Source: Methylobacterium sp. J-030
GTDB lineage: Bacteria > Pseudomonadota > Alphaproteobacteria > Rhizobiales > Beijerinckiaceae
Reading direction: 5' to 3'
Length of the DNA stretch: 64,000 nucleotides
NCBI RefSeq assembly: GCF_022829545.1
Contig: NZ_JAKSYM010000227.1
Coordinates: 1-64,000 of the forward strand
Below are positions 8,102 to 56,823 of the stretch, piece after piece (the first letter of the stretch is position 1; the number at the start of each line of letters is the position of its first letter). Under the pieces are notes generated by a model, which was not told the DNA's origin, did no database searches, and was given only the letters and a program-made list of their open reading frames with translations. Made by a program: the position numbers and the translations under genes.

Positions 8102-8562
8102 CGGATCACCGCCCGGTCCACGCGGGCTGTGAGGGTGCCGACCGACAGGATTGCGCCCCCGGGCGGTCCGATCAGGATGCGGCCGCCGCTGGATCCGCCA
8201 TCCGGCAGGAAGCGGATCTCGGGCGGCAGGCCTGCCTCCGCCCCGGCGGTCTCGACGCGGATCGGGAGCGGCGCGGTCGGGATCGGCGCGGCGCCCGCGC
8301 GGGAACTGAGGAACCGGCCCGATTCGGGCTCGAAGGCGAGGCGCGTCGTCCGCCCGGAGCGGAGGGCCTCCGCGTGCAGGAGGCCGATCGCGGCGGCGAT
8401 CATCCCGGACAGGCGTCCGGCGCGGCGCCCGGCATCGAAGCCGCCGGCGAACTGGGCGGCGAGACCGGCGGCCAGCCCGATGATCGCGAGGGTCACGAGC
8501 ATCTCGACGAGGGTGAAGCCTGCGTCCTCGGCCGCGTTCCTGATCGATCCGTCCGCCGGCAC
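8098..8562 (-). CDS. gspH: Type II secretion pseudopilin GspH-like protein (orphan)
   Basis: About 154 residues. The prepilin signature DAGFTLVEMLVTLAIIGLAA has Gly(-1), Phe(+1) and Glu(+5) as needed for prepilin peptidase and helix packing. The rest fits the GspH/FimT minor-pseudopilin body: LLHAEALRSGRTTRLAFEPE, then IRFLPDGGSSGG and the terminal ILIGPPGGA. GTG 8562 is chosen as the nearest start giving a short leader; the spacing to AGAGGA upstream is long, so this is uncertain. It overlaps the following chimeric gene by four bases. No other gsp genes are present, so this looks like a remnant of a deleted type II secretion operon. Confidence 0.72.
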   Translation of the reverse strand: MPADGSIRNAAEDAGFTLVEMLVTLAIIGLAAGLAAQFAGGFDAGRRAGRLSGMIAAAIGLLHAEALRSGRTTRLAFEPESGRFLSSRAGAAPIPTAPLPIRVETAGAEAGLPPEIRFLPDGGSSGGRILIGPPGGAILSVGTLTARVDRAVIR

Positions 8563-43193: not shown

Positions 43194-44243
43194 TCAGAGA
43201 TGAGGCGGCCCTTCGCCCTTACCGACGAAGGGGATACCCTCTATCGGACATTCGTCGGTCCCGACACTCTGTCGCGTGATAGCCCGCACAGCATCACGGG
43301 TTCCGTCGGGATCCTCGATCCAGCGCCGGTAGAAGTCGTAGGGGCATTCCGATAGCCCGTGCCGGTTCTCCTTCGAGTTGATCATGCCCGTATAGCCGCG
43401 GTGCAGGAGCTTGAAGAGGTGGTTCTCCGACTGACCGTGGGCGCGGAAGTCCCGGATCAGGAACTTGGAGAGGGCCGCGTACTGGATGCCCATCTCCTCC
43501 TCGCCGCACTCGCCGAGCGTCCGGCCGTCGAAGCCGATGATCGCCGAGTGTCCGAAATAGGTGTAGACGCCGTCAAATCCGGCCGCGTTCGAGACCGCGA
43601 CGTAGACGTTGTTGGCAAACGCCATGGCCTTCGAGATGACGACCTGCTGCTCCTTGGCCGGGTACATGTAGCCCTGGCAGCGGATGATCAGCTCGGCGCC
43701 CCGCATGGCGCAGTCGCGCCAGATCTCGGGATAGTTGCCGTCGTCGCAGATGATCAGGCTGATCTTCAGGCCCTTCGGCCCGTCCGACACGTAGGTCCGG
43801 TCGCCCGGATACCAGCCCTCGATCGGCGTCCAGGGCATGATCTTGCGGTATTTCTGCACGATCTCGCCCTGGTCGTTCATCAGGATCAGGGTGTTGTAGG
43901 GCGCCTTGTTGGGGTGCTCCTCGTGGCGCTCGCCGGTGAGCGAGAACACGCCCCAGACCTCGGCCTCCCGGCAGGCGGCGGCGAACACCTCGGTCTCGGC
44001 GCCCGGGACCATCGAGGCGGTCTCGTACATCTCGGCGGCGTCGTACATGATGCCGTGGGTCGAGTATTCCGGGAAGATCACGAGGTCGAGGCCGGGCAGG
44101 CCGGACTTCATCCCGACGATCATCTTGCCGATCGCCTTGGCGTTCTCCAGCACCTCCGCGCGGGTGTGCAGGCGCGGCATCTTGTAGTTCACGACGGCGA
44201 CGCCGACGCTGTCCTGGCTGGACGAGATGTCTCCATGCATCAT
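43194..44243 (-). CDS. amiE: Aliphatic amidase AmiE
   Basis: 349 residues, near-complete match to the well-studied Pseudomonas aeruginosa amidase. The catalytic triad is Glu59 (FPEYS), Lys134 (KYRKIMPW) and Cys166 ([14 protein letters not shown]), exactly the family positions. It hydrolyses short-chain amides (acetamide, propionamide) to acid and ammonia in the cytoplasm as a homohexamer. The start [19 protein letters not shown] aligns with MRHGDISSS, fixing ATG 44243. It is the last gene of the urtABCDE-hydrolase-fmdA-fmdB-amiE unit; the 210-bp gap before it holds a long inverted repeat, so it may also have its own promoter. Confidence 0.96.
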
Positions 44244-44455: not shown

Positions 44456-44770
44456 TCAGTGGCTGATCATCCAGGGCCGCGCCGCCGGAAAGCTCTTGGC
44501 GGCGGCCGGTGCGGCTGTCTTCTTCGGTGTGCAGCAGCCGCAGCCCGCCCCGTGGCTCCCCGAGCGCCGCGGCGCGTGGCGGCTGCGCTCGTTGGTGGCG
44601 TGGGCCGCTTTCAGCCCGGCATCCATCCCGGAAATCCGCGGGGCGGTGATGAAGGCCCGCTGGCAGGCCTCCCCGCAATCCGGGCAGGCGTGCGGATCCT
44701 TGAACTCCGCCATCGGCCGCATGGCGGTGAACGGCCCGCAGGCCTCGCAGGCGTAATCGTAGACCGGCAT
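44456..44770 (-). CDS. fmdB: FmdB-family zinc-ribbon protein
   Basis: 104 residues. The N-terminus [12 protein letters not shown] with CxxC at 8-11 and CPDCGEAC at 29-36 gives the four Cys of the FmdB zinc ribbon. FmdB of Methylophilus methylotrophus is a regulator of the formamidase operon by genetic position; small Zn-ribbons of this type are common. The C-terminal half is basic with a further Cys cluster ([12 protein letters not shown]). It starts two bases after the stop of fmdA, so translation is coupled. Confidence 0.88.
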
Positions 44771-44772
44771 GA

Positions 44773-46002
44773 TCACAGATCCGGCGAGAGCGGCATCTGG
44801 ATCGAGCCGTCCAGGAACTTGGTCGGTCCGTCGGCGCCGGGATTGATGTCGAACTCGAAGATCTTGGTCGGAATCCACAGCGTCGCGCAGGCGTTCGGGA
44901 TGTCGACCACGCCCGAGATGTGGCCCTGGACCGGTGCCGTGCCCAGGATCGAGTAGGCCTGCGCGCCCGAGTAGCCGAACTTCTTCAGGTACTCGATCGC
45001 GTTCAGGCAGGCCTGCCGGTAGGCGATGTGCACGTCGAGGTAGTGCTGGCCGCCGTGCTCGTCGACCGAGATGCCCTCGAAGATCAGGTGGTCGTCGTAT
45101 TTCGGCGTGATCGGCGACGGCTTGAAGATCGGGTTCTTGATCCCGTACTTGGCCATGCCGTCCTTGATCAGCTCGACCTTGAGATGCACCCAGCCGGCCA
45201 TCTCGATGGCGCCGCAGAAGGTGATCTCGCCGTCGCCCTGGCTGAAGTGCAGGTCGCCCATGGAGAGGCCGGCGCCGGGCACGTAGACCGGGAAGTAGAT
45301 TTTTGACCCGCGCGACAGATCCTTGATGTCGCAATTGCCGCCGTGCTCGCGGGGTGGGACCGTGCGGGCGCCGGTGGCGGCCGCGGCGTCCTTCGCGTCG
45401 CCCTGGAGGCGGCCCATATGGGCGGTCGGGCCGAAGGGCAGGGTGGCCAGCGCCGGCACGCGCTCGGGATTGGTGTCGTAGAGCGCCTTCTCGCGGGTGT
45501 TCCAGGTCTCCAGCATCTTCGGATCGGGCAGGCAGCCGATCAGGCCGGGGTGGATCAGGCCGGGGAAACGGACGCCGGGCACGTGGCGGGATTTCGTGAA
45601 CATCCCCTCGAAGTCCCAGATCGACTTCTGGGCCTGCGGGAAGTGCTCGTCGAGGAAGCCGCCGCCGTTCTTCTTCGAGAAGAAGCCGTTGAAGCCCCAC
45701 TGGCTCTCGGGCTTGGCGCCGATATCGAGGAGGTCGACCACCAGCAGGTCGCCGGGCTCGGCGCCCTCGACGCCGATCGGGCCCGAGAGGAAGTGCACGA
45801 TCGACAGGTCGATGTCGCGCACGTCGTCGGCGGAATCGTTGTTCTTGATGAAGCCGCCGGTCCAGTCGTAGGTCTCGACGATGAAGTCCGCGCCGGGCTT
45901 CACATAGGCAACCATCGGTATGTCCGGGTGCCAGCGGTTGTGCACCATGTCGTTGTCGTAGGCCGATTGCGTCAGATCGACCTTGATCAGCGTCTCGGGC
46001 AT
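44773..46002 (-). CDS. fmdA: Formamidase/acetamidase FmdA
   Basis: 409 residues, full length for the FmdA_AmdA family. The start [27 protein letters not shown] (read in parts) is characteristic. The block [20 protein letters not shown] and the metal/active-site region [20 protein letters not shown] are intact. It hydrolyses formamide, and to a lesser degree acetamide, in the cytoplasm. This enzyme family is unrelated to AmiE, so the operon encodes two different amidases with overlapping substrates. It is preceded by the MetX-like hydrolase gene on the same strand. Confidence 0.95.
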
Positions 46003-46064: not shown

Positions 46065-47084
46065 TCACCCGCTCGCGAGCAACTCCTTGAGCGCGTCGTC
46101 GAGGACCTTGATGTCGTCCGGGCTGGTGCCGGGCCCGCCTGCGAAATGGCCCCACCACGTGTCGATCACGCGCAGCTCCGCGTTCGGCATGGCGGCCGCC
46201 TCAATGGCGTTGTCCTCGGGCGGGAAATACAGGTCTGTCGAGGCGGGCATCAGGATCGCCTTCGCGCGGATGGCGCCGAGGGCAGCCTTGAAGTCGCCCC
46301 TGAAGGTGTCGTTGGCGCTGATGTCGCCATGCTGCCACGTCCACAGCATGGCGAGCAGGTTGTTGGCGTCGCGTTCGTAGAACAGGCCTTCCCAGAACCC
46401 GATCAGGAAGTCCTCCAGCGAGGCGTAGCCCATGTGGGTGATGTCGGCTTCCAGCCGGTAGAAAGTCTGCGACAGGCCCCAGCCGGCGTAGACCCGGCCG
46501 AAGGCGCGCAGGCCCCGGGTCGGCGGGCTCGTGTACCAGCCCTCCGCCCAGGCGGCGTCGGCCTGGAGCGCCGCCTTGGCGCCCTCCAGGAAGACGTAGT
46601 TGTGCCGGGAGCACTTGGCCGAGCCCTGAAACGGCAGGATCTTCGGCACCATGTCGGGGTACATCGACGCCCAGTGGTAAGTCTGGAGCGCGCCCATCGA
46701 CCAGCCGGTGACGAGGACCAGTTTCTCGATGCCGAAATGCTCAGTGACGAGGCGGTGCTGGGCGCGGACGTTGTCGTAGGCGGTGACGTTGGGGAAGCGC
46801 GGCCCGTTCCAGGGCGCGGGCGTATTGCTCGGCGAGGACGAGAGCCCGTTGCCGAACATGTTCGGGATGATGATGAAGTACTTGTCCGGGTCGAGCGCCT
46901 TGCCGGGGCCGATCAGCCACGCGTTCTCGGTGTGCTGGCCCGAATACCAGGTCGGGTAGACGATGGCGTTGTCCCGGGCAGCGCTCAGCGTCCCGAAGGT
47001 CTTGAAGGCGAGCTTGGCCGCGCGCAGCGTCTTGCCGCACTGGAGCACGAAGTCGCCGAGTTCGAAGATCTCGTAATCGGCCAT
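46065..47084 (-). CDS. MetX-like alpha/beta hydrolase
   Basis: 339 residues. The start MADYEIFELGDFVLQCGKTL and the block TAYDNVRAQHRLVTEHFGIE resemble homoserine O-acetyltransferase-like hydrolases. The nucleophile is Ser in GWSMGALQTYHW (G-x-S-x-G), and a His lies in WWGHFAGGPG near the C-terminus. True MetX specificity is doubtful, as no methionine gene is near. Its place between urtE and fmdA suggests an ester or N-acyl substrate linked to amide use, but no reaction can be assigned. It begins nine bases after urtE. Confidence 0.75.
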   Translation of the reverse strand: MADYEIFELGDFVLQCGKTLRAAKLAFKTFGTLSAARDNAIVYPTWYSGQHTENAWLIGPGKALDPDKYFIIIPNMFGNGLSSSPSNTPAPWNGPRFPNVTAYDNVRAQHRLVTEHFGIEKLVLVTGWSMGALQTYHWASMYPDMVPKILPFQGSAKCSRHNYVFLEGAKAALQADAAWAEGWYTSPPTRGLRAFGRVYAGWGLSQTFYRLEADITHMGYASLEDFLIGFWEGLFYERDANNLLAMLWTWQHGDISANDTFRGDFKAALGAIRAKAILMPASTDLYFPPEDNAIEAAAMPNAELRVIDTWWGHFAGGPGTSPDDIKVLDDALKELLASG

Positions 47085-47093
47085 GCTGCGCCC

Positions 47094-47858
47094 CTAGACC
47101 GACAGGAACCGGGCGACGGCGGCCTCGTCGATCCCGTCGCGCGGGGCCTCGTGGACGATGGCGCCGTTCTCCATGACGATCACCCGGTCGGCGACGTCGA
47201 GGGCGAAGCTCAGGACCTGCTCGGAGACGACGATCGACAGGCCGCGCTGATCGCGGATCTTTTTGAGGGTCCGGCCCATCTCCCGGATGATCGAGGGCTG
47301 GATGCCCTCGGTGGGCTCGTCGAGGAGCAGCACCTTCGGGCGGCTCGCCAGCGCCCGGGCGATGGCGAGCTGCTGCTGCTGCCCGCCCGAGAGGTTGCCG
47401 CCGCGCCGTCCCTTCATCTCCAGCAGGACCGGGAACATGTCGTAGAGGTCCTGCGGGACCTTGCGGGTGCCGGTCACCGTCAGGCCGGTCTCGATGTTCT
47501 CCTGGACCGTCATGGTGGAAAAAATCATCCGGCCCTGCGGCACGTAGGCGAGGCCCCTGGCGACCCGGGCATGGCTCTTGAGGGCGGCGACATCCGTGCC
47601 CTCGACCTGGATCGACCCGGCCTTGACGGGCACGAGGCCCATCAGGGTCTTCATCAGCGTGGTCTTGCCCATGCCGTTGCGGCCCATCACGGCGACGATC
47701 TCGCCCGGCGCCACCGAGAAGGTGAGCCCGTGCAGGACCTCGCTCTGGCCGTAGGCGGCGTGCAGATCCGCGACGGCGAGCGCCGGCGTCGCGGCCGGGA
47801 TGGTGGCGAGGGGCGGCGCCTGGATTCCTGGGGTATGCGCGGTCTGAAGCGACGCCAT
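47094..47858 (-). CDS. urtE: ABC transporter ATP-binding protein UrtE-like
   Basis: 254 residues, LivF-type ATPase. Walker A is GRNGMGKTT, the signature LSGGQQQQLAIARAL, Walker B VLLLDEPTEG. The sequence PVKAGSIQVEGTDVAALKSHARVA fits UrtE. An N-terminal 28-residue extension (MASLQTAHTPGIQAPPLATI...) precedes the core; a later in-frame start is possible but not preferred, because ATG 47858 lies two bases from the UrtD stop. It drives uptake of a short-chain amide or urea together with UrtBCD. Confidence 0.92.
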   Translation of the reverse strand: MASLQTAHTPGIQAPPLATIPAATPALAVADLHAAYGQSEVLHGLTFSVAPGEIVAVMGRNGMGKTTLMKTLMGLVPVKAGSIQVEGTDVAALKSHARVARGLAYVPQGRMIFSTMTVQENIETGLTVTGTRKVPQDLYDMFPVLLEMKGRRGGNLSGGQQQQLAIARALASRPKVLLLDEPTEGIQPSIIREMGRTLKKIRDQRGLSIVVSEQVLSFALDVADRVIVMENGAIVHEAPRDGIDEAAVARFLSV

Positions 47859-47860
47859 CG

Positions 47861-48646
47861 TCAATGTCCCAAATAAACTTCGATGACCTTCGGGTCGTTC
47901 TTGACCCGCTCCATCGACCCCTCGGAGAGCACCTTGCCCTGGTGCAGGACGGTCACCCGGTGGGCGATGTCCTCGACGAACTTCATGTCGTGCTCGATCA
48001 CCAGCACCGAGCGGCCCTTGATGATCTGGTTGAGGAGTTCGGCGGTCTTGATCCGCTCGCCGACGCTCATCCCGGCCACCGGCTCGTCGAGCATCAGCAG
48101 CTCCGGGTCCTGGATCAGCAGCATGCCGATCTCCAGCCACTGCTTCTGGCCGTGGCTCAGGAATTCGGCCCGCTCCTTCAGCTGGTCCTTCAGGAAGATC
48201 GTCTCGGCGATGGCGTGGATGCGGTCGCGGACCTCCGCATCCCGCTTGAACGTCAGCGCGCCGAACACCGAGCGGCCCCGGGGGAACGAGATCTCCAGGT
48301 TCTCGAACACCGTGAGGTCGTCGTAGATCGACGGCGTCTGGAACTTGCGGCCGACCCCGGCCTGCACGATGGCGCTCTCGGAGAGCTTGGTCAGTTCCTG
48401 GCCCTTGTACTTGATCGAGCCGGCGCTCGCCTTGGTGCGCCCGCAGATCAGGTCGAGGACCGTGGTCTTGCCGGCGCCGTTCGGGCCGATGATCACCCGG
48501 ATCTCGTCGGGTTCGACGTAGAACGACACGTCGTTCACCGCCTTGAACCCGTCGAAGGAGACGGTCAGGGCCTCGACGGCGAGGAGATGGTCGGGCGGGG
48601 CCGCCTCGGCGCCGACCACGGGGGAGGAGAGGATCGCGGCGTTCAT
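47861..48646 (-). CDS. urtD: ABC transporter ATP-binding protein UrtD-like
   Basis: 261 residues, LivG-type ATPase. Walker A is GPNGAGKTT. The signature LSHGQKQWLEIGMLL is specific to UrtD rather than LivG, and Walker B is LLMLDEPVAGMS. It pairs with UrtE as the ATPase dimer of the permease. It starts nine bases before the urtC stop region and ends two bases before urtE. The UrtD identity argues for a urea/short-chain-amide importer rather than a branched amino acid system. Confidence 0.94.
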   Translation of the reverse strand: MNAAILSSPVVGAEAAPPDHLLAVEALTVSFDGFKAVNDVSFYVEPDEIRVIIGPNGAGKTTVLDLICGRTKASAGSIKYKGQELTKLSESAIVQAGVGRKFQTPSIYDDLTVFENLEISFPRGRSVFGALTFKRDAEVRDRIHAIAETIFLKDQLKERAEFLSHGQKQWLEIGMLLIQDPELLMLDEPVAGMSVGERIKTAELLNQIIKGRSVLVIEHDMKFVEDIAHRVTVLHQGKVLSEGSMERVKNDPKVIEVYLGH

Positions 48647-48654
48647 TCAGGTCC

Positions 48655-49827
48655 TCACTCGGCTGGGGCGCCGTGGGGCGGGACGATCGCGGGCGGTGGA
48701 GCGCGCAGACCCTTCACCCGGCGGGTGAGACGCGGCTCGATATGCTCCCGCCAGATCCCGGCGAGACCGTTCGGGAAGGCCAGAACCACCGCGATGAACA
48801 GGGCGCCGAGGCCGAAGAGCCAGAGATCCGGAAAACTCTCGGAGAAGCTGGTCTTGGCCCAGTTGACCAAGAGCGTGCCCCAGACCGCGCCGAACAGCGA
48901 CAGCCGCCCGCCGACCGCGGCGTAGATCACCATCTCGATCGAAGGGACGATGCCCACGAAGGAGGGCGACATGAACCCGACCTGCAGGGTGAACATCGCC
49001 CCGCCGATCGCCGCCAGGCCGGCGGCGAAGCAGAAGGCGAAGACCTTGAACCCCGCCACCGCGTAGCCGGAGAAGCGGACCCGGTCCTCCTTGTCGCGCA
49101 TGGCGACGAGGATCCGGCCGAGCTTCGACTTCTTCACGTACTGCGCCGCCAGGATGCAGGCGATCAGCAGGCCGCCGTTGACGAAGTACAGGATGGTCTT
49201 TGCGCCATCGGTGCGGATGTCCCAGCCGTGGAGGGTGCGCAGGTCGGTGATGCCGTTGATCCCGCCGGTATAGCCCTGCTGGCCGACGATCAGGATCGTC
49301 AGGATAGCGGCGATCGCCTGGGTGATGATGGCGAAGTAGGTGCCGCCGACCCGGCGCTTGAACATCGCGTAGGAGATCAGCATCGCGAACAGGACCGGGA
49401 CGGCGACCACGAGGATCAGCGTCAGCGGCAGGCTCTTGAACGGCTGCCAGAACCACGGGATCGCGGTGATCTGGTTCCAGTCCATGAAATCCGGGATGCC
49501 GGGCGTCGACTGGATCTTCGTATTCGCAACGCTCGAGGCTTCGAGCTTCAAGTACATCGCCATGCAGTACCCGCCCAGGCCGAAGAACACGCCTTGGCCG
49601 AGGGACAGGATGCCGGCATAGCCCCAGCAGATCACCAACCCAAGGGCCACGAAGGCGTAGGTCAGGTACTTGCCGACGAGGTTGAGGCGGAAGCTGTCGA
49701 GCACCATCGGCAGGACCACCAGGATCACCCCGGCCAGCAAAGCCAAGCTCAGCCACTCGACCGGCTTCATGAACGGGTTGTCGTTGACGGTGACGGATTT
49801 GGTGAGGGTCTGGACCGGATTCGTCAT
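48655..49827 (-). CDS. urtC: ABC transporter permease UrtC-like
   Basis: 390 residues, LivM-type membrane subunit with about ten helices. Readable are YAFVALGLVICWGYAGILSLGQ (family motif, read in parts), ISYAMFKRRVGGTYFAIITQAI, the loop between TM helices typical of LivM, and EHIEPRLTRRVKGLR at the C-terminus. ATG 49827 is 14 bases after the urtB stop. It forms the channel with UrtB. Confidence 0.92.
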   Translation of the reverse strand: MTNPVQTLTKSVTVNDNPFMKPVEWLSLALLAGVILVVLPMVLDSFRLNLVGKYLTYAFVALGLVICWGYAGILSLGQGVFFGLGGYCMAMYLKLEASSVANTKIQSTPGIPDFMDWNQITAIPWFWQPFKSLPLTLILVVAVPVLFAMLISYAMFKRRVGGTYFAIITQAIAAILTILIVGQQGYTGGINGITDLRTLHGWDIRTDGAKTILYFVNGGLLIACILAAQYVKKSKLGRILVAMRDKEDRVRFSGYAVAGFKVFAFCFAAGLAAIGGAMFTLQVGFMSPSFVGIVPSIEMVIYAAVGGRLSLFGAVWGTLLVNWAKTSFSESFPDLWLFGLGALFIAVVLAFPNGLAGIWREHIEPRLTRRVKGLRAPPPAIVPPHGAPAE

Positions 49828-49840
49828 GGTCGAAAAATCC

Positions 49841-50767
49841 TCAGCGCCGGACCTTGAGGGTGAAGAGGCCCTGCGGCCGCAGCATCAGGATGCCGACCAC
49901 CGCGAGCAGGGTGATCACCTTGGCCATCGAGCCGGAGAGGAAGAATTCCAGGGTCGACTGCGTCTGGGAGATCGAGAAGGCCGACGCGATGGTGCCCAAA
50001 AGGCTCGCGGCGCCGCCGAACACGACGATCAGGAAGGTGTCGACGATGTAGAGCTGGCCCGAGGTCGGCCCGGTCGAGCCGATCATCGTGAAGGCCGAGC
50101 CGGCGATCCCCGCGATGCCGCAGCCGAGTCCGAACGTGTAGCGATCGACCTTCTCGGTATCGATGCCCACTGCCCCCGCCATGGCGCGGTTCGACATCAC
50201 GGCGCGGACCTGCTGGCCGAAGCGCGAGCGGTAGATCAGCAGCGCGACGCTGACCGTGATCAGGATGGTGACGGCCATGACGAACAGGCCGTTGATCGGG
50301 ATCTCGATCGTGTCGGTGACCTGCACCGAGCCGATCAGCCAGGAGGGCAGCTCGACGCCGACCTCGCGGGCGCCGAAGATCGACCGGTAGGCCTGCTGAA
50401 GAATCAGCGAAAGGCCCCAGGTGGCGAGGAGCGTATCGAGCGGGCGCTTGTAGAGGAACCGGATCAGGCCCCATTCCACCAGCATGCCCAAGGCCCCGGA
50501 GGCAAGGAACGCCAGGCCCATCGCGATGAAGAAGTAGATCGGGAAGAGCGCCGGCAGATAGGTCTGGAAGAAGGTCGAGCAGAGGTAGGTGACGTAGGCG
50601 CCGAGGATCATGAACTCCCCGTGGGCCATGTTGATCACCCCCATCTGGCCGAAGATGATCGCGAGCCCGAGCGCCATCAGCACGTAGACGGAGAACAGGA
50701 TCAGGCCGGCGAAGCCCTGCATGGCGAAGATGGCGCCGAGATCGCTGAGGGAATAGTCGCCGAGCAT
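49841..50767 (-). CDS. urtB: ABC transporter permease UrtB-like
   Basis: 308 residues, LivH-type with about eight helices. GLAIIFGQMGVINMAHGEFMI is the family motif (read in parts). SVYVLMALGLAII near the start and SLLGTIASAFSISQTQSTLEF near the end are further marks. This short form lacks the N-terminal extension of many UrtB proteins. The start is at ATG 50767; the gap of about 220 bp from urtA contains REP copy 2. Confidence 0.92.
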   Translation of the reverse strand: MLGDYSLSDLGAIFAMQGFAGLILFSVYVLMALGLAIIFGQMGVINMAHGEFMILGAYVTYLCSTFFQTYLPALFPIYFFIAMGLAFLASGALGMLVEWGLIRFLYKRPLDTLLATWGLSLILQQAYRSIFGAREVGVELPSWLIGSVQVTDTIEIPINGLFVMAVTILITVSVALLIYRSRFGQQVRAVMSNRAMAGAVGIDTEKVDRYTFGLGCGIAGIAGSAFTMIGSTGPTSGQLYIVDTFLIVVFGGAASLLGTIASAFSISQTQSTLEFFLSGSMAKVITLLAVVGILMLRPQGLFTLKVRR

Positions 50768-50985: not shown

Positions 50986-52254
50986 TTACTGATAGCCCTT
51001 CGGGAACGGATCCGGCTTGATCAGCTCCGGGCTGGTGTAGACGATCTCGAACTGGCCATCGGTCTTCGCCCGGCCGACCCGGGTCTTCGACCAGAGGTGA
51101 TGGTTCGGATCGATCCGGACGTAGCCTTCCGGCGCGCCCTTGAATTCCAGGCCTGGCGAGGCCGCCACCACCTTGTTGACGTCGAACGAGCCGGCCTTCT
51201 CGCAGGCCATCTTCCAGAGATGCGGCCCGAGATAAGCCGCCTGCGTCACGTCGCCGATGACGGTCTTCTCGCCCCACATCTTCTTGAAGGCCGCGACGAA
51301 CGCCTTGTTGTTCTCGTTGTCGATCGACTGGAAGTACTTCATGCAGGCATAGGCCCCGGCGATGTTCTCGCCGCCGATGCCGTCGATCTCGTCCTCGGTG
51401 ACCGAGATCGTCATCAGGACCTGCTTCGACAGGTCGATACCCGCCGCCTTGAGCTGCTTGTAGAACGCCACGTTCGAGCCGCCGACCACGTCGGCGAAGA
51501 TCACCTTCGGCTTGGTCAGCTTGATCTTGTTGATCACCGAGTTGAACTGCGTGTGGCCGAGCGGGAAGTACTCCTCGCCGACGACCTTGCCCTTGAGCAC
51601 GTTCTCGACGTGCTTGCGGGCGATCTTGTTGGAGGTGCGCGGCCAGATGTAGTCCGAGCCGATGAAGTAGAAGCTGTCGCCGCCCTTCTCCTTGTGGACC
51701 CAGTCGAGGCCGGCGAGGATCTGCTGCGTCGCCTCCTGGCCGGTGTAGAAGACGTTCTTCGACTGCTCCAGCCCCTCGTAGAAGGTCGGGTAGTAGAGCA
51801 GGCCGTTATACTGCTCGAAGACCGGCAGAACCGCCTTGCGCGAGGCCGAGGTCCAGCAGCCCATCACGGCCGCGCAATGGTCGTTGACCAGGAGCTTCTT
51901 GGCCTTCTCGGCGAAGGTCGGCCAGTCGGAGGCGCCGTCCTCCTGGATGATCTTGATCTTGCGGCCGAGCACGCCGCCGGCCTCGTTGATCTGGGCGATC
52001 GCGAGTTTTTCCGCTTCCTGCGCGCCCGTCTCGGAGATCGCCATCGTGCCGGTGATCGAGTGCAGGATGCCGACCGTCACCTCGCTGTCGGTCACCGCGA
52101 GGCCAGTGGTGTTCACCGAAGCGGTGGTCGGCGCGGCCCAGGCGGTGCGCGGCATCAGTGCGAGCGCCGGGGCGCCGGCCAGCCCCATCAGCAGCTTGCG
52201 CCGCAACGGGGAGCGCAAGCCGTGATCCGCGCCCTTGTCGGTGTCGTCTGCCAT
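50986..52254 (-). CDS. urtA: Urea/short-chain-amide ABC transporter substrate-binding protein UrtA-like
   Basis: 422 residues. The Tat-like signal is at 1-42 (LRRKLLMGLAGAPALALMPR, Ala-x-Ala cleavage at AWA). The Peripla_BP_5 body has VTVGILHSITGTMAISETGAQ, ASDWPTFAEKAKKLL, and the characteristic MGCWTSASRKAVLPVFEQYN and LLYYPTFYEGLEQSKNVFY, as in UrtA/AmiC/FmdD. Ligand is probably a short amide given the two amidases in the same operon, although urea cannot be excluded. It is the first gene and divergent from the sensor kinase. An inverted repeat lies about 90 bp upstream. Confidence 0.93.
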   Translation of the reverse strand: MADDTDKGADHGLRSPLRRKLLMGLAGAPALALMPRTAWAAPTTASVNTTGLAVTDSEVTVGILHSITGTMAISETGAQEAEKLAIAQINEAGGVLGRKIKIIQEDGASDWPTFAEKAKKLLVNDHCAAVMGCWTSASRKAVLPVFEQYNGLLYYPTFYEGLEQSKNVFYTGQEATQQILAGLDWVHKEKGGDSFYFIGSDYIWPRTSNKIARKHVENVLKGKVVGEEYFPLGHTQFNSVINKIKLTKPKVIFADVVGGSNVAFYKQLKAAGIDLSKQVLMTISVTEDEIDGIGGENIAGAYACMKYFQSIDNENNKAFVAAFKKMWGEKTVIGDVTQAAYLGPHLWKMACEKAGSFDVNKVVAASPGLEFKGAPEGYVRIDPNHHLWSKTRVGRAKTDGQFEIVYTSPELIKPDPFPKGYQ

Positions 52255-52529
52255 CTGCCTGACCCTGTTCCCGTCCGGGGCCTTTGAGGGGCGGCCGCGG
52301 ATCGACGGGGGCAGGCTAGGGCGCTCGCCGCGGTGCAGCATATACGCTGTTTTGCGTATGGCCGGGCTCTTGCCTCTGCGGCACCGTCGATCCGACTCGT
52401 TCAGGAACCGATGACGCTCGGAGTCGCGTATTCACGCCGCGTAAGGGCGTTTTGTGCTGCGCGTTGCAAGTCACGCGCGGTTGTGGCCGCTTGCCTTGGC
52501 GGCAACGGCCGGGTCCGGATCGGCGGCCG
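52255..52529. other. Divergent promoter region between urtA and sensor kinase
   Basis: 275 bp with no gene. It contains the ATACGC-N6-GCGTAT inverted repeat (52342-52359) and two further GCGTA half sites (about 52426 and 52439). No sigma-54 -24/-12 pattern was found on either strand. Confidence 0.5.
52342..52359. promoter_or_regulatory. Perfect inverted repeat ATACGC-TGTTTT-GCGTAT
   Basis: An 18-bp symmetric site 88 bp upstream of the urtA start and 170 bp upstream of the kinase start. It is the most symmetric element in this region and the natural candidate for binding of the LuxR-type response regulator encoded at 55912-56823. Confidence 0.55.
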
Positions 52530-55500
52530 ATGAGCGCCCCGCAGCGCATCATCCCGATCCGGCGCGACTACAACCGCTTCGTCGCGGACGAGACGCTCGA
52601 GGATTACGCGCTCCGCTTCACGGCCAAGAAAGCCCGACGCTGGTCCGGCTTCGAGGTCGCGCAGACGGCGCTCGGCTCGATCTCGTTTCTGGCGCTGGAG
52701 GCGATCGGCGGCACGCTCGTCCTCACCGCGGGCTTCGTCAACGCCCTGGCGGCCATCCTCGTCGTCGGCCTGATCATCTTCGCCACCGCCGTGCCGATCA
52801 CCACCTATGCCGCGCGCTACGGCGTCGACATGGATCTGCTCACCCGCGGGGCCGGCTTCGGCTATCTCGGCTCGACGGTGACGTCGCTGATCTACGCGAG
52901 CTTCACCTTCCTGTTCTTCGCCATCGAGGCGGCGATCATGGCGCTGGCGCTGCAGCTCTGCCTCGGGTTGCCGCTCTGGATCGGGTATCTCGTCTGCGCG
53001 AGCGCGGTGATCCCGCTCGTGGCCTACGGCATCCGCCTGATCAGCCGGCTGCAGATCTGGACGCAGCCGCTCTGGCTCGCCCTGGGCCTGCTGCCCCTCG
53101 TCTGCATCGCCGTCCAGGATCCCGCTGCGCTGCAGGCTCTGACGGCGTTCCCCGGTCTCGACGGGCGGGGCGACGGCTTCGACCTCGCGCGGTTCGGCAC
53201 CGCCACCGGCGTGCTGCTGGCGCTGCTGGCGCAGGTCGGCGAGCAGGTGGATTTCCTGCGCTTCGTGCCCGAGCCGGAGTCCGCGCGCGACCGGACCTGG
53301 TGGCTGGCTGTGCTGGCGGGCGGCGCCGGCTGGATCCTGCCCGGCATGGTCAAGATCCTCCTCGGGGCCGGGCTCGCGGTCCTCGCCCTCGCGCACGGCG
53401 TCCCGCCCGACGCGGCCGCCGAACCGACCCAGATGTACCGCGTCGCCTTCGGCTACGTGACGGGCGGGAACGGCCAGGCGGCGCTGCTGCTGATGGGGGC
53501 CTTCGTCTTGGTCTCGCAGCTCAAGATCAACCTGACCAACGCCTATGCCGGCTCGATCGCGTGGTCGAACTTCTTCTCGCGCCTCACGCACAGCCATCCG
53601 GGCCGGGTCGTCTGGCTCGTCTTCAACGTCGCCATCGCCGTGCTGCTGATGATGCTCGGCATCGACAAGACGATCGAGAGCACCCTTCCGCTCTATGCCT
53701 GCGTCGTCTCGGCCTGGGTCGGGGCGCTCGCCGCCGATCTCGCCGTCAACAAGCCCCTCGGGCTGTCACCGCCCGGCATCGAGTTCAAGCGGGCGCATCT
53801 CTACGCGGTCAACCCGGTCGGCACCGGAGCGATGCTGCTCGCCCTGGCGGCAGGCTGCCTGCTGCACCTGGGTCTCGGGGGCGCGACGCTGCAGGCCTTC
53901 GCTCCGATGCTGACGCTCGCCATCGCGTTCTGCGCGGCCCCCACCCTGGCCTGGGCGACCGGCGGGCGCTGGTACCTCGCCCGGACACCGCGCACCGACT
54001 GGGGCGCGGGCGAGATCACCTGCCGGGTCTGCGAGCTGCCCTTCGAGGGCGAGGACATGGCCCATTGCCCGGCCTACGACGCGCCGATCTGCTCGCTCTG
54101 CTGCTCCCTCGACGCGCGCTGCGGCGACCTCTGCAAGCCGCACGGCCGGCTGGAGGTCCAGGCCCAGCAGACCCTCGGTCATATCCTGCCCCGCCGCACG
54201 GCCGCCTGGATCGGCGCGCCGCTCGGGCGCTATCTCGCGGTGATGCTGACGCTGTGCACGGTGATCGGCCTGATTCTCGGGGTCGTGCATGCGGGCGCGA
54301 GCCTCGCCCATCCGGACCATCGCGAGGTCCTGCGCGCGGCGCTGACCAGCGTCTTCTTCATCCTCGTCGTCATCCTCGGGATCGTCGCTTGGCTGTTCGT
54401 GCTCGCGCAGGAAAGCCGGCGGGTCGCCCAGGCCGAGACGCGACGCCAGACCGCCCTCTACGAGGCCGAGATCGCGGCGCACAAGGTGACCGACGCCAAG
54501 CTCCAGGAGGCCAAGGAGCGCGCTGAGGCCGCCAATCAGGCGAAGAGCCGCTACGTCGTCGGCCTCAGCCACGAATTGCGAACCCCGCTCTCCAGCGTGT
54601 TCGGTTACGCCCAGCTGCTCGAGACGGACCCGACGATCCCCGCGGCCCGCCTCAACGGCATCCGGGTCATCCGGCGCAGTGCCCAGCACCTCTCAGGCCT
54701 GATCGACGGGCTTCTCGACATCTCGCGGATGGAGGCGGGTCGCCTGCAGATCAACCGCGACGAGATCCGGCTCTCGGACTTCCTCGACCAGCTCGCCGAC
54801 ATGGTCCGGCTCCATGCCCGCGAGGCCGGATTGGACTTCCGCTTCACGCGTCCCGAGACCCTGCCGCAGGTCGTCGCCACCGACGAGAAGCGCCTCAGGC
54901 AGGTGCTGCTCAACCTGCTGTCGAACGCCATCAAGTTCACGGCGCGCGGTACCGTCTCGCTCGATCTGAGCTATCGCAGCCAGGTCGCGGTCTTCACGAT
55001 CCGCGACACGGGACCCGGCATCCCGGAGGCGGACCGCGCCCGGATCTTCGAACCCTTCGAGCGCGGCTCGACGCCGGCGGCCCGCAGCACGCCCGGTACC
55101 GGCCTCGGGCTCACCATCGCCAACCTGCTGGCGCAACTCCTCGGCGGCGAGATCACGCTGGCGGCGGCCCCGGGTGGCGGGACGCAGGCACGGCTGCGCC
55201 TGATGCTGGCCGCGGTGACGCAGCCCGCGGTCACGCCCGCACCCGCGCCGCCGGCCCGCGCGGAATCCGGTTATGCAGGACCGCGCAGAACCGTCCTCGT
55301 GGTCGACGACGATACCGCGCACCGCACCTTGATGCGGGCCATCCTCGAACCGCGCGGGCTCACGGTGCGCGAGGCCGAGACGGGACTCGCCTGCCTCGCG
55401 GCCGTCGCGGAGGCGACGGAGTCCGAGGGGATCGATCTGATTTTTCTCGACATCGCGATGCCTGGCATGAGCGGTTGGGACGTGGCGGCGGCCCTGCGCG

Positions 55501-55919
55501 CGCGGGGTCATGTCGGGCCGATCGCGATGATGTCTGCCAACGTCCACGAACTCGGCCCCCTGCGCGGCGACAGTCCGCCCCATGACGCGATCCTGACCAA
55601 GCCGTTCGACCTACGCGACGTGCTGGACCGGACCGGCGCCTTGCTGCGCCTCGACTGGACGGAGGCGCCGGGGATGTCCCCTCCGGCTGCGGAGCCCGGG
55701 CATCGGCCCGCATCGGGCCGCCCCAGCGCCGGCCAGATCGGCGAACTGCTGCAGCTTGGTCGCATCGGACATATCCGGGGCATCGAGGCGAAGCTTGCGG
55801 CGCTGGAACAGGACGAGGCCGTGTCTCCGGCCTTCGTGCTGCAGATGCGCGGCCTGATCGCCGGCTATGACCTGCGCCGCTACCTCACGGTCTTAAAGGA
55901 GCACGCCGGCGATGATTGA
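52530..55919 (+). CDS. Transporter-type hybrid sensor kinase: NCS1 permease domain + Cys cluster + HisKA/HATPase + receiver
   Basis: 1129 residues. Residues 1-480 are a complete NCS1 (purine/cytosine permease-like, PF02133) domain with about 12 helices, beginning with the family start LEDYALRFTAKKARRWS. Residues 498-535 carry eight Cys (498, 501, 513, 521, 524, 525, 531, 535) in a zinc- or FeS-like cluster. Two further helices are at 565-588 and 602-626, then a coiled coil. The kinase core has His681 (SHELRTP), the N box LLNLLSNAIKF (793-803), G1 DTGPGI (826-831) and G2 GTGLGL. The receiver is at 920-1040 with Asp926-928, phospho-Asp974 and Lys1024. A helical C-terminal tail follows. It is divergent from the amide operon, which suggests that it senses an amide. 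Confidence 0.9.
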   Translation: MSAPQRIIPIRRDYNRFVADETLEDYALRFTAKKARRWSGFEVAQTALGSISFLALEAIGGTLVLTAGFVNALAAILVVGLIIFATAVPITTYAARYGVDMDLLTRGAGFGYLGSTVTSLIYASFTFLFFAIEAAIMALALQLCLGLPLWIGYLVCASAVIPLVAYGIRLISRLQIWTQPLWLALGLLPLVCIAVQDPAALQALTAFPGLDGRGDGFDLARFGTATGVLLALLAQVGEQVDFLRFVPEPESARDRTWWLAVLAGGAGWILPGMVKILLGAGLAVLALAHGVPPDAAAEPTQMYRVAFGYVTGGNGQAALLLMGAFVLVSQLKINLTNAYAGSIAWSNFFSRLTHSHPGRVVWLVFNVAIAVLLMMLGIDKTIESTLPLYACVVSAWVGALAADLAVNKPLGLSPPGIEFKRAHLYAVNPVGTGAMLLALAAGCLLHLGLGGATLQAFAPMLTLAIAFCAAPTLAWATGGRWYLARTPRTDWGAGEITCRVCELPFEGEDMAHCPAYDAPICSLCCSLDARCGDLCKPHGRLEVQAQQTLGHILPRRTAAWIGAPLGRYLAVMLTLCTVIGLILGVVHAGASLAHPDHREVLRAALTSVFFILVVILGIVAWLFVLAQESRRVAQAETRRQTALYEAEIAAHKVTDAKLQEAKERAEAANQAKSRYVVGLSHELRTPLSSVFGYAQLLETDPTIPAARLNGIRVIRRSAQHLSGLIDGLLDISRMEAGRLQINRDEIRLSDFLDQLADMVRLHAREAGLDFRFTRPETLPQVVATDEKRLRQVLLNLLSNAIKFTARGTVSLDLSYRSQVAVFTIRDTGPGIPEADRARIFEPFERGSTPAARSTPGTGLGLTIANLLAQLLGGEITLAAAPGGGTQARLRLMLAAVTQPAVTPAPAPPARAESGYAGPRRTVLVVDDDTAHRTLMRAILEPRGLTVREAETGLACLAAVAEATESEGIDLIFLDIAMPGMSGWDVAAALRARGHVGPIAMMSANVHELGPLRGDSPPHDAILTKPFDLRDVLDRTGALLRLDWTEAPGMSPPAAEPGHRPASGRPSAGQIGELLQLGRIGHIRGIEAKLAALEQDEAVSPAFVLQMRGLIAGYDLRRYLTVLKEHAGDD

Positions 55920-56823
55920 GCCCAGCCGCGACGTGGTCCTCGTGGTCGACGATTCGCCCGAGACGCTGAGCTTCCTGACGGAGGCGATCGAGCGCTCGGG
56001 CGCGACCGTGCTGATCGCGGTGGCGGGCGATCTCGCCCTCGCCCTCGTTGACGAGGTCACCCCCGACGTGATCCTGCTCGATGCGGTCATGCCCGGCCTC
56101 GACGGCTTCGAAACCTGCCGCCGCCTGAAGGCGAAGCCGCACCTTGCCGGAGTTCCGGTGATCTTCATGACCGGCCTGAGCGAGACCGAGCACATCGTCC
56201 GCGGCCTCGACGCCGGCGGCGTCGACTACGTGACGAAGCCCATCGTCCCCGACGAACTCCTGGCCCGCATCCGCACCCACCTTGCCGGGGCGCGTTCCAC
56301 CCGCAGCGCCCGCACGGCTTTCGACGCGATCGGCCGGACCCTGCTGGCGGTTTCGGCGAATGGACGGGTTCTATGGTGTACGCCGCAGGCAGGGCAGATC
56401 ATCGCCGCCCTGGCTCCGACGCGCGACGGCGTGCTGTCCCTGCCACCCGAAGCTGTCGCTTGGCTGCGGTCCTGTCTCGCCGGGACGGCAGCCGGCTCCA
56501 TGGCTCTGAAGGAGTCGCGTGGACCTCCGCACACGCTCACGTTCGTCGGCGGCACGGCCGAAGAGATCCTGCTGCGCCTATCTCAGGACGATCCGGCCCT
56601 AAATCTCGCCCGGTTGCGGGCGAGCCTGCCCATCACCGCCCGTGAGGCGGAGGTGCTGTTCTGGCTGTCCCAAGGCAAGTCGAGCCGGGATATCGGGGAA
56701 ATTCTAGGTCTTAGCCACCGGACCGTAACCAAGCATCTCGAAGCCATCTATGCTAAGCTTGGGGTTGAGAACAGAACTGCGGCCTCGATAATTGCCAATC
56801 GTTACCTGCAAGGCGGCAGTTGA
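55912..56823 (+). CDS. LuxR-type (NarL-like HTH) response regulator
   Basis: 303 residues. The receiver is at 1-125 with Asp13/Asp14, phospho-acceptor Asp57 (ILLDAVMPG) and Lys109 (YVTKPI). A linker of about 100 residues follows. The C-terminal HTH at about 238-300 reads ITAREAEVLFWLSQGKSSRD and LGLSHRTVTKHLEAIYAKLG, which is the GerE/LuxR signature. It overlaps the kinase gene by eight bases, so translation is coupled and the two are a cognate pair. Its target is probably the urtA promoter. Confidence 0.93.
   Translation: MIEPSRDVVLVVDDSPETLSFLTEAIERSGATVLIAVAGDLALALVDEVTPDVILLDAVMPGLDGFETCRRLKAKPHLAGVPVIFMTGLSETEHIVRGLDAGGVDYVTKPIVPDELLARIRTHLAGARSTRSARTAFDAIGRTLLAVSANGRVLWCTPQAGQIIAALAPTRDGVLSLPPEAVAWLRSCLAGTAAGSMALKESRGPPHTLTFVGGTAEEILLRLSQDDPALNLARLRASLPITAREAEVLFWLSQGKSSRDIGEILGLSHRTVTKHLEAIYAKLGVENRTAASIIANRYLQGGS

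Follow-up and report, generated by a model that had tools for sequence, protein, structure and literature searches.

To our knowledge, few histidine kinases fused to a transporter domain have been characterized so far, and these are of the SLC5/STAC or the Amt type. CbrA, CrbS and RpuS represent the SLC5/STAC scaffold, and a second group of kinases carries an Amt domain. Here we describe a gene from a 64,000-nucleotide stretch of Methylobacterium sp. J-030 (contig NZ_JAKSYM010000227.1, positions 1 to 64,000; this whole stretch is called the window), the product of which joins an NCS1-like permease to a hybrid histidine kinase and which diverges from an operon for amide uptake and hydrolysis. 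What is new, judged from sequence comparison, is the NCS1-like scaffold for a transporter-fused kinase together with a specific predicted regulon, marked by the dyad TACG-N8-CGTA. No description of an NCS1-type histidine kinase was found in the literature searched, which largely excluded subscription journals; this agrees with the original prediction, a reading of the window made from its letters, which knew of no characterized NCS1 version.

CbrA/CbrB of Pseudomonas resembles the window system in that a LeuT-fold transporter domain is fused to a histidine kinase, and the available excerpts of PMC13022988 report a lysine (K196) in the Na2 site of CbrA; a remote alignment places K332 of the window protein in a column of the CodB Na2 site. 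However, CbrA combines an SLC5 scaffold with STAC and PAS domains and is linked to histidine, whereas the window kinase has an NCS1-like scaffold, a cysteine module, two additional helices, a hybrid receiver and a REC-LuxR partner, and no Pfam match to PAS at E ≤ 1. SLC5-type and STAC families were likewise absent among its Pfam hits, the existence of a Pfam STAC model being unchecked. CrbS/CrbR (MxtR/ErdR) and RpuS/RpuR are also transporter-fused kinase systems controlling genes of nutrient use or import, and CrbS is a hybrid kinase whose partner CrbR needs an imperfect inverted repeat (PMC5436829, PMC5715377, PMC9100948, as far as their text was accessible). These systems differ in being of the SLC5/STAC type and in serving acetate or pyruvate, and the CrbR motifs printed in the accessible text (e.g. 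TACTACCATCGTCGAAT) differ from TACG-N8-CGTA; no ErdR motif is given in PMC9927547. In Ks-Amt5, according to parts of PMC5764959, a nutrient transporter was similarly recruited as a sensor and fused to a kinase, but the fold is that of Amt and the nutrient is ammonium.

Taken together, the data described below suggest that the window protein is probably a receptor in which an NCS1-like permease recognizes short-chain amides and/or urea, and that it controls urtABCDE-fmdAB-amiE via its regulator and the dyad. The domain architecture, the conserved catalytic residues, the gene neighbourhood and the dyad, including its occurrence in trans, were directly established.

Pfam and alignment identified the HisKA histidine, the HATPase domain and the receiver aspartate expected of a hybrid histidine kinase. 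H681 and the receiver residues D926, D927, D974 and K1024 are invariant among 24 aligned kinases, a set comprising the 26 copies known at that stage except L042 and the broken copy L051. Structure prediction places the two extra helices at residues 564-593 and from residue 595. The neighbouring gene encodes a LuxR/NarL-type response regulator with a Response_reg domain (residues 9-121) and a GerE helix-turn-helix domain (241-294) in Pfam, and its residues D13, D14, D57 and K109 are invariant among 20 chosen regulators. It starts at position 55912, ahead of the kinase gene end at 55919, and the regulator gene directly follows the kinase gene in 24/24 intact copies, overlapping it in 23. The fusion of permease, eight cysteines, two helices, histidine kinase and receiver that the original prediction had described was confirmed by Pfam, alignment and model, as was the eight-base overlap with a LuxR-type regulator gene. 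The architecture is not a product of chance, as many genomes share the fusion, the overlap and the divergent order. In the broken copy (L051 10436-12850, genome G326) the frame stops in transmembrane segment 6, and the end of the HATPase domain and the receiver follow in a different frame. An internal deletion, or a faulty assembly, would give such a picture; the adjacent regulator gene is intact.

The assignment of the permease part was less straightforward. PF02133, the Pfam model of NCS1 permeases, gave no match for the kinase protein at E ≤ 1, none in its own genome at E ≤ 0.001 and none for two stand-alone cousins at E ≤ 10. As a detector of the family it had to be rejected, since among 61 genomes of the order its hits above the cut-off, present in 4, were all unrelated permeases; the search for PF02133 together with HisKA/HATPase that had been proposed would have missed the family. 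In NCBIfam, four stand-alone cousins matched no permease model and the window permease had only a chance-level hit. Searches of PDB sequences, one of them with a profile, did not reach NCS1. A comparison of profiles by hhalign, in which 66 dereplicated family members were set against CodB together with 12 further proteins taken from PF02133 hits (without the hits L056, L243, L249 and L250), gave 99.7% probability and E 3.7e-27 over 404 columns; fewer sequences gave 98.2% and E 6.2e-14. Moreover, an AlphaFold model of residues 1-650 (predicted local distance difference test, pLDDT, 78.7; predicted template modelling score, pTM, 0.79) retrieved Mhp1 or CodB entries at all of ranks 1-5 in Foldseek. 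VIA-align scored CodB at Z 34.8 (root-mean-square deviation 3.3, 397 aligned), Mhp1 at 27.5-29.9 and the next family at 24.7, and NCS1 structures scored above SLC5 structures. On the evidence of profiles and predicted fold, the permease part is NCS1-like and appears to form a divergent clade that curated models miss. It is not an NCS1 member by Pfam's definition, and because PF02133 gives no match we use the label 'NCS1-like'. The NCS1 identity that had been proposed thus holds for kinship and for the CodB/Mhp1 fold, but not for the PF02133 match. CodB, Mhp1 and MetT, which share this fold and remote sequence kinship, differ from the window protein in lacking a kinase; MetT shows that NCS1 can accept a non-cyclic substrate (PMC13390362, in the part available).

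We then compared the columns of the putative binding site. In 60/60 dereplicated fused forms E57, E133, K332, N334 and Y339 are fixed, and E133 with K332 is present in all 66 pocket rows (a set without L110, L196 and near-copies). The hhalign mapping, which is remote, places E133 in the column of Mhp1 Q121 and K332 in that of Thr278 of the CodB Na2 site. According to parts of PMC9379551, W108 and F204 of CodB are an aromatic pair sandwiching the base, and Thr278 belongs to Na2. In this alignment the family appears to differ from CodB at both aromatic positions: the W108 column holds F129, Phe in 53 and Leu in 7 of the 60 fused forms, while the NCS1 rows have W or Y in 13/13, and the F204 column (residue 233) is Ile, Val or Leu in 54/60, with F or W in 9 of the 13 NCS1 rows. 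A gap adjoins the latter column, and residue 232 is also aliphatic. The CodB Na2 threonines are not general, T/S occurring in 6 and T in 7 of the 13 NCS1 rows. These remote column matches suggest that the site takes a small polar ligand and works without Na+.

Relatives of the permease part also occur without a kinase domain, and the three that were measured are 39-49% identical to it. In Moraxella osloensis, a 547-aa stand-alone cousin diverges from fmdAB, with no family kinase in the fetched stretch. The cousin in a Klebsiella record (L208 8989-10596) follows urease genes, again with no family kinase in the fetched stretch; ureD, A, B, E, F and G are listed there, with an insertion sequence element at the expected place of ureC, and the record, although labelled a plasmid, looks chromosomal because it contains rpsU-dnaG-rpoD. 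This cousin is annotated 'cytosine permease' and is possibly a misnamed urea or amide permease. In Methylovirgula and G1044, a cousin lies near fmdAB and amiE and each locus also has a kinase, while no amide gene was recognized in the fetched stretch around the cousin on an Arthrobacter plasmid. Four of the five cousins lie near formamidase or urease genes, which gives the best clue that small amides or urea are handled by this clade. The five group together as one clade in the permease tree, and the larger group around them contains short and long kinases; L115, apparently a fused gene with an early frame end, is not counted among them.

These cousins bear on the question whether the fused protein is a true bifunctional transporter-kinase, in which the permease would import the amide or urea and signalling would follow the transport cycle, as proposed for CbrA. 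Such a role would be in line with the similar gene settings of the cousins, those of Moraxella and the Klebsiella record having no linked family kinase, with the identity of E133, K332, N334 and Y339 between fused and stand-alone forms, and with the uptake of histidine by the SLC5 domain of CbrA (PMC13022988, excerpts). However, an ABC importer is usually encoded next door (20/25 loci), and the Amt-kinase Ks-Amt5 binds without translocating, as the accessible text of PMC5764959 states. Furthermore, F53 and E57 in transmembrane segment 1 are found in 60/60 fused forms, whereas the five stand-alone forms have Y53 and F or Q at position 57; this may mark a loss of transport, albeit on the basis of one clade. 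We regard a bifunctional protein as possible but doubtful.

The eight cysteines between permease and kinase (498, 501, 513, 521, 524, 525, 531 and 535) are invariant in the 24 aligned kinases. Pfam gave no match for this module in the window protein and FYVE in 1/24 members at E 0.022; its predicted structure (pLDDT 70.9) yielded weak RING, PHD and FYVE fold matches, the best at E 0.26, so that 'zinc finger' is a tentative name suggested by the model. The module, and a gene setting of nitrogen scavenging, could mean that the kinase reports nitrogen state, redox or a metal through the cysteines instead of a permease ligand. Among 17 chosen rows, however, all eight cysteines are also present in the stand-alone Methylovirgula cousin (they are reduced in that of Moraxella and nearly absent from that of Arthrobacter), and for this reason the module appears tied to the permease and not to signalling alone. 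We consider this alternative quite unlikely.

To evaluate the distribution of the family, the permease part was searched in several genome sets. It was matched in 26/385 genomes of the class and 53/398 of the phylum, own genome included in both, and in 528/72,556 plasmid records, of which 342 are Klebsiella by name and a few contain stand-alone cousins. A scan of 84,980 species genomes gave at least 597 stretches and at least 566 relatives, of which 80 were kept. Of the 26 class-sample matches, 25 belong to frames of at least 1,124 aa and one (L026/L051) is broken. When the neighbours were tabulated as had been suggested, urt genes were present in 20/25 and fmdA in 11/25 of the class-sample loci (8-20 kb each, own window excluded), and the family thus does occur beside amidase and urt genes. 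In two further loci, those of G230 and G343, the contig stops inside the urt operon and fmdA is found on another contig.

In the reverse test, FmdA was found in 21/385 class genomes (22 places), and all 17 genomes with an FmdA at least 78% identical (own included) also hold the kinase; the remaining five places (61-68% identical) have no linked kinase, and four of these five genomes have none at all. The hydrolase and uptake parts vary between loci (FmdA, AmiF or AmiE; UrtABCDE or AmiS/UreI): a urtABCDE-amiF operon diverges from the kinase on Klebsiella plasmids (L057, L212), Paracoccus has fmdA-AmiS/UreI-fmdB with a shorter kinase and without urtABCDE of this kind, and Methylovirgula has fmdAB and amiE beside the kinase without urt. 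The amide theme, as read from the gene content, is constant across these variants. A second version of the system was seen at L211 (8896-12623), L194 and L195, where a shorter kinase (open frames of 863-893 aa) lies near fmdA-AmiS/UreI-fmdB without a perfect dyad; L211 has a separate regulator.

The dyad in the window is located about 90 bases above the likely urtA start, and downstream of it follows CCTAGCCT, which is common to most Methylobacterium relatives shown. TACG-N8-CGTA is present in 70/87 kinase-urtA divergent regions (86 loci and the window), while spacers of 3-7, 9-13 and 15 do not occur, a spacer of 14 occurs twice, and mononucleotide shuffles of the same regions gave a mean of 0.25 and a maximum of 3. 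Within 1.58 Mb of loci, 75 of 91 occurrences fall into the 23.5 kb of kinase-urtA regions. After dereplication at 78% the dyad is perfect in 26/37 regions and has at most one mismatch in 31/37; at 70% the values are 13/23, against 0.05 in a Markov control, and 17/23, against 1.55. Of 120 perfect dyads in 133 loci, 112 have a kinase, urt, fmdA, amiE or cousin gene at most 700 bp downstream and 8 lie elsewhere; a few of these loci, for example L039 and L207, represent the same place taken from two sources. In Alcanivorax-like loci perfect dyads stand in front of fmdA, within the operon. Across the 6.92 Mb of the own genome 12 sites were counted, compared with 101 for the reversed pattern. The dyad is probably the operator of the regulator, as predicted from its distribution. 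The kinase-regulator pair and a perfect dyad also accompany the urt-amiF cluster in L057 and L212.

Evidence in trans came from G033, G162 and G260, three genomes with the kinase pair and urtABCDE-fmdAB on different contigs. All three have a perfect dyad just above urtA and also above the kinase, a more direct link between regulator and operon than the neighbourhood provides. The earlier suggestion that an amide signal is converted into control of the operon is therefore supported by neighbourhood and dyad, also in trans, with a ligand that may include urea.

Several observations weigh against a kinase that senses amides and acts through this dyad. The pocket mapping depends on a remote profile alignment. 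The evidence in trans amounts to one independent case because the three genomes belong to one genus, and after dereplication at 65% the dyad is perfect in 5/12 regions and has at most one mismatch in 7/12. No perfect dyad is present in 17/87 regions, 10 of which have one at a single mismatch; L034, L035, L043, L045 and L135 have urt genes and no nearby dyad even at one mismatch, and the urease-adjoining kinase loci L200, L202, L204, L205 and L206 have no perfect dyad in the fetched stretch. The kinase of G051 has no urt neighbour, and two of the three sites of the stricter pattern TACGY-N6-RCGTA there flank apparent TRAP-transporter genes, for which reason the dyad may serve other ligands or regulators. 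In addition, urease genes are present in the locus of 11 fused rows. As separate observations, the two perfect dyads flanking TRAP-transporter-like genes in G051 lie at 8204 and 12078 of L236, and the five urease-adjoining loci may use another operator.

The G051 sites and the urt loci of the family without any dyad would fit a dyad that belongs to another regulator, the kinase pair merely riding with the operon. On the other hand, none of the five fetched fmdA loci without a linked kinase has a perfect dyad (one has a single-mismatch site), and G033, G162 and G260 carry it in front of the kinase gene as well as in front of the urtA on the other contig. The fetched kinase-less Moraxella locus and Klebsiella record have no dyad either. 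Because some urt loci have no dyad and the Na2 residues vary, we gave slightly less weight to the amide receptor and more to an unrelated dyad, which we still consider quite unlikely.

The urease genes also raise the question of the ligand. As some members adjoin urease, the ligand may be or include urea, or may differ between subfamilies. Urea as the sole ligand, with the amidases secondary, would fit these 11 rows, the stand-alone cousin after urease genes and UrtA, which passes the curated cut-off of a urea-binding-protein model. However, 79 fused rows have amidase and urt genes but no urease hit within the stretch fetched, against one with both, the Methylovirgula and Paracoccus copies lie beside fmdA without this urtABCDE, and the kinase and a close FmdA co-occur in 17/17 genomes, which renders urea alone unlikely. 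The labels amidase and urease are clustered on the permease tree (22 changes, compared with 28.5 on average after shuffling; 0/200 shuffles were as low). A clean split of the tree by context was rejected, since the least possible number is 11 changes and the urease rows are scattered. The tree is a quick one with support from the Shimodaira-Hasegawa-like approximate likelihood ratio test (SH-aLRT), and L051 and L107 (both <300 residues), L110, L115 and near-copies of >78% identity were left out.

For the amide receptor, we infer the ligand, the direction of control, the binding of the dyad by the regulator and the phosphate route as follows. A short-chain amide (formamide, acetamide) and/or urea would bind in the former transport site, and the conformational change would pass via the cysteine module and the two extra helices to the kinase. 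H681 would be phosphorylated and the phosphate transferred to the receiver of the same protein, to the co-translated REC-LuxR regulator, or to both. This regulator would then bind TACG-N8-CGTA and activate urtABCDE-fmdAB-amiE, perhaps also its own divergent operon, resulting in amide uptake and hydrolysis to ammonia.

Table 1. Positions of the kinase-regulator pair, the protein domains, the predicted control elements and the divergent operon in the window.
Feature	Position	Strand	Remarks
NCS1-like permease / hybrid histidine kinase	52530..55919	+	ATG start, 1129 aa
NCS1-like permease domain	52530..53984	+	about residues 1-485; model, fold and profile comparison
Eight-Cys module	54012..54149	+	residues 495-540; weakly RING/PHD/FYVE-like in prediction
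Two extra hydrophobic helices, lead into kinase	54219..54404	+	about residues 564-625
HisKA domain, phospho-acceptor H681	54543..54740	+	residues 672-737, Pfam
HATPase_c domain	54879..55208	+	residues 784-893, Pfam
Receiver domain (Response_reg), D974 likely phospho-acceptor	55293..55628	+	residues 922-1033, Pfam
REC-LuxR (GerE) response regulator	55912..56823	+	303 aa; 8-base overlap with kinase gene
Dyad TACGCTGTTTTGCGTA (TACG-N8-CGTA), predicted operator of regulator	52343..52358	none
TAGCCT within CCTAGCCT, possible -10 element of urtA	52313..52318	-
urtA, binding protein	50986..52254	-	listed open reading frame start 52341 at the dyad's edge; 52254 likelier start
urtB, permease subunit	49841..50767	-	74% identical to annotated UrtB of L057
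urtC, permease subunit	48655..49827	-
urtD, ATPase	47861..48646	-
urtE, ATPase	47094..47858	-
Alpha/beta-hydrolase-fold protein, inside operon between urtE and fmdA	46065..47084	-
fmdA, acetamidase/formamidase	44773..46002	-
fmdB, zinc-ribbon protein	44456..44770	-
amiE, aliphatic amidase	43194..44237	-

The kinase gene diverges from urtABCDE-hydrolase-fmdA-fmdB-amiE (Table 1), and amiE and urtA pass the curated NCBIfam cut-offs for aliphatic amidase and UrtA. The operon had been given before as urtABCDE-fmdA-fmdB-amiE; its genes and divergence stand, but the alpha/beta-hydrolase-fold gene had been omitted. This gene is also found in many Methylobacterium and Methylorubrum loci.

Control of amidase and of amide or urea uptake has been described before for AmiC/AmiR and the Methylophilus fmd cluster. 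AmiC/AmiR differs in being a binding protein plus an antiterminator (PMC13209695, in part), and no transporter-fused kinase is mentioned for either system in the accessible portions of the literature searched. A Pseudomonas urtABCDE-fmdAB-amiE cluster has been described, with formamide uptake suggested, and the terms 'histidine kinase' and 'two-component' do not appear in the available text (PMC13209695). The urea ABC system of Klebsiella ST307/CG307 plasmids (UTS: UrtABC/AmiF) resembles the urtABCDE-amiF operon divergent from this kinase, and judging by gene content the two are probably the same; the accessible main text of the UTS papers PMC5506382 and PMC13060141 contains neither of these terms. 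One genome paper, of which a part was available, names a hybrid kinase and a LuxR regulator in the legend of a figure about nitrogen genes.

This third scaffold, whose stand-alone cousins occur in similar settings, allows the evolution from transporter to receptor to be tested by swapping positions or domains, and the dyad offers a ready reporter and a predicted regulon. Our findings propose a regulator for the urt-fmdA operons and the plasmid urt-amiF operons, and suggest that formamide or related amides may be signals for a plasmid system that is annotated for urea uptake.

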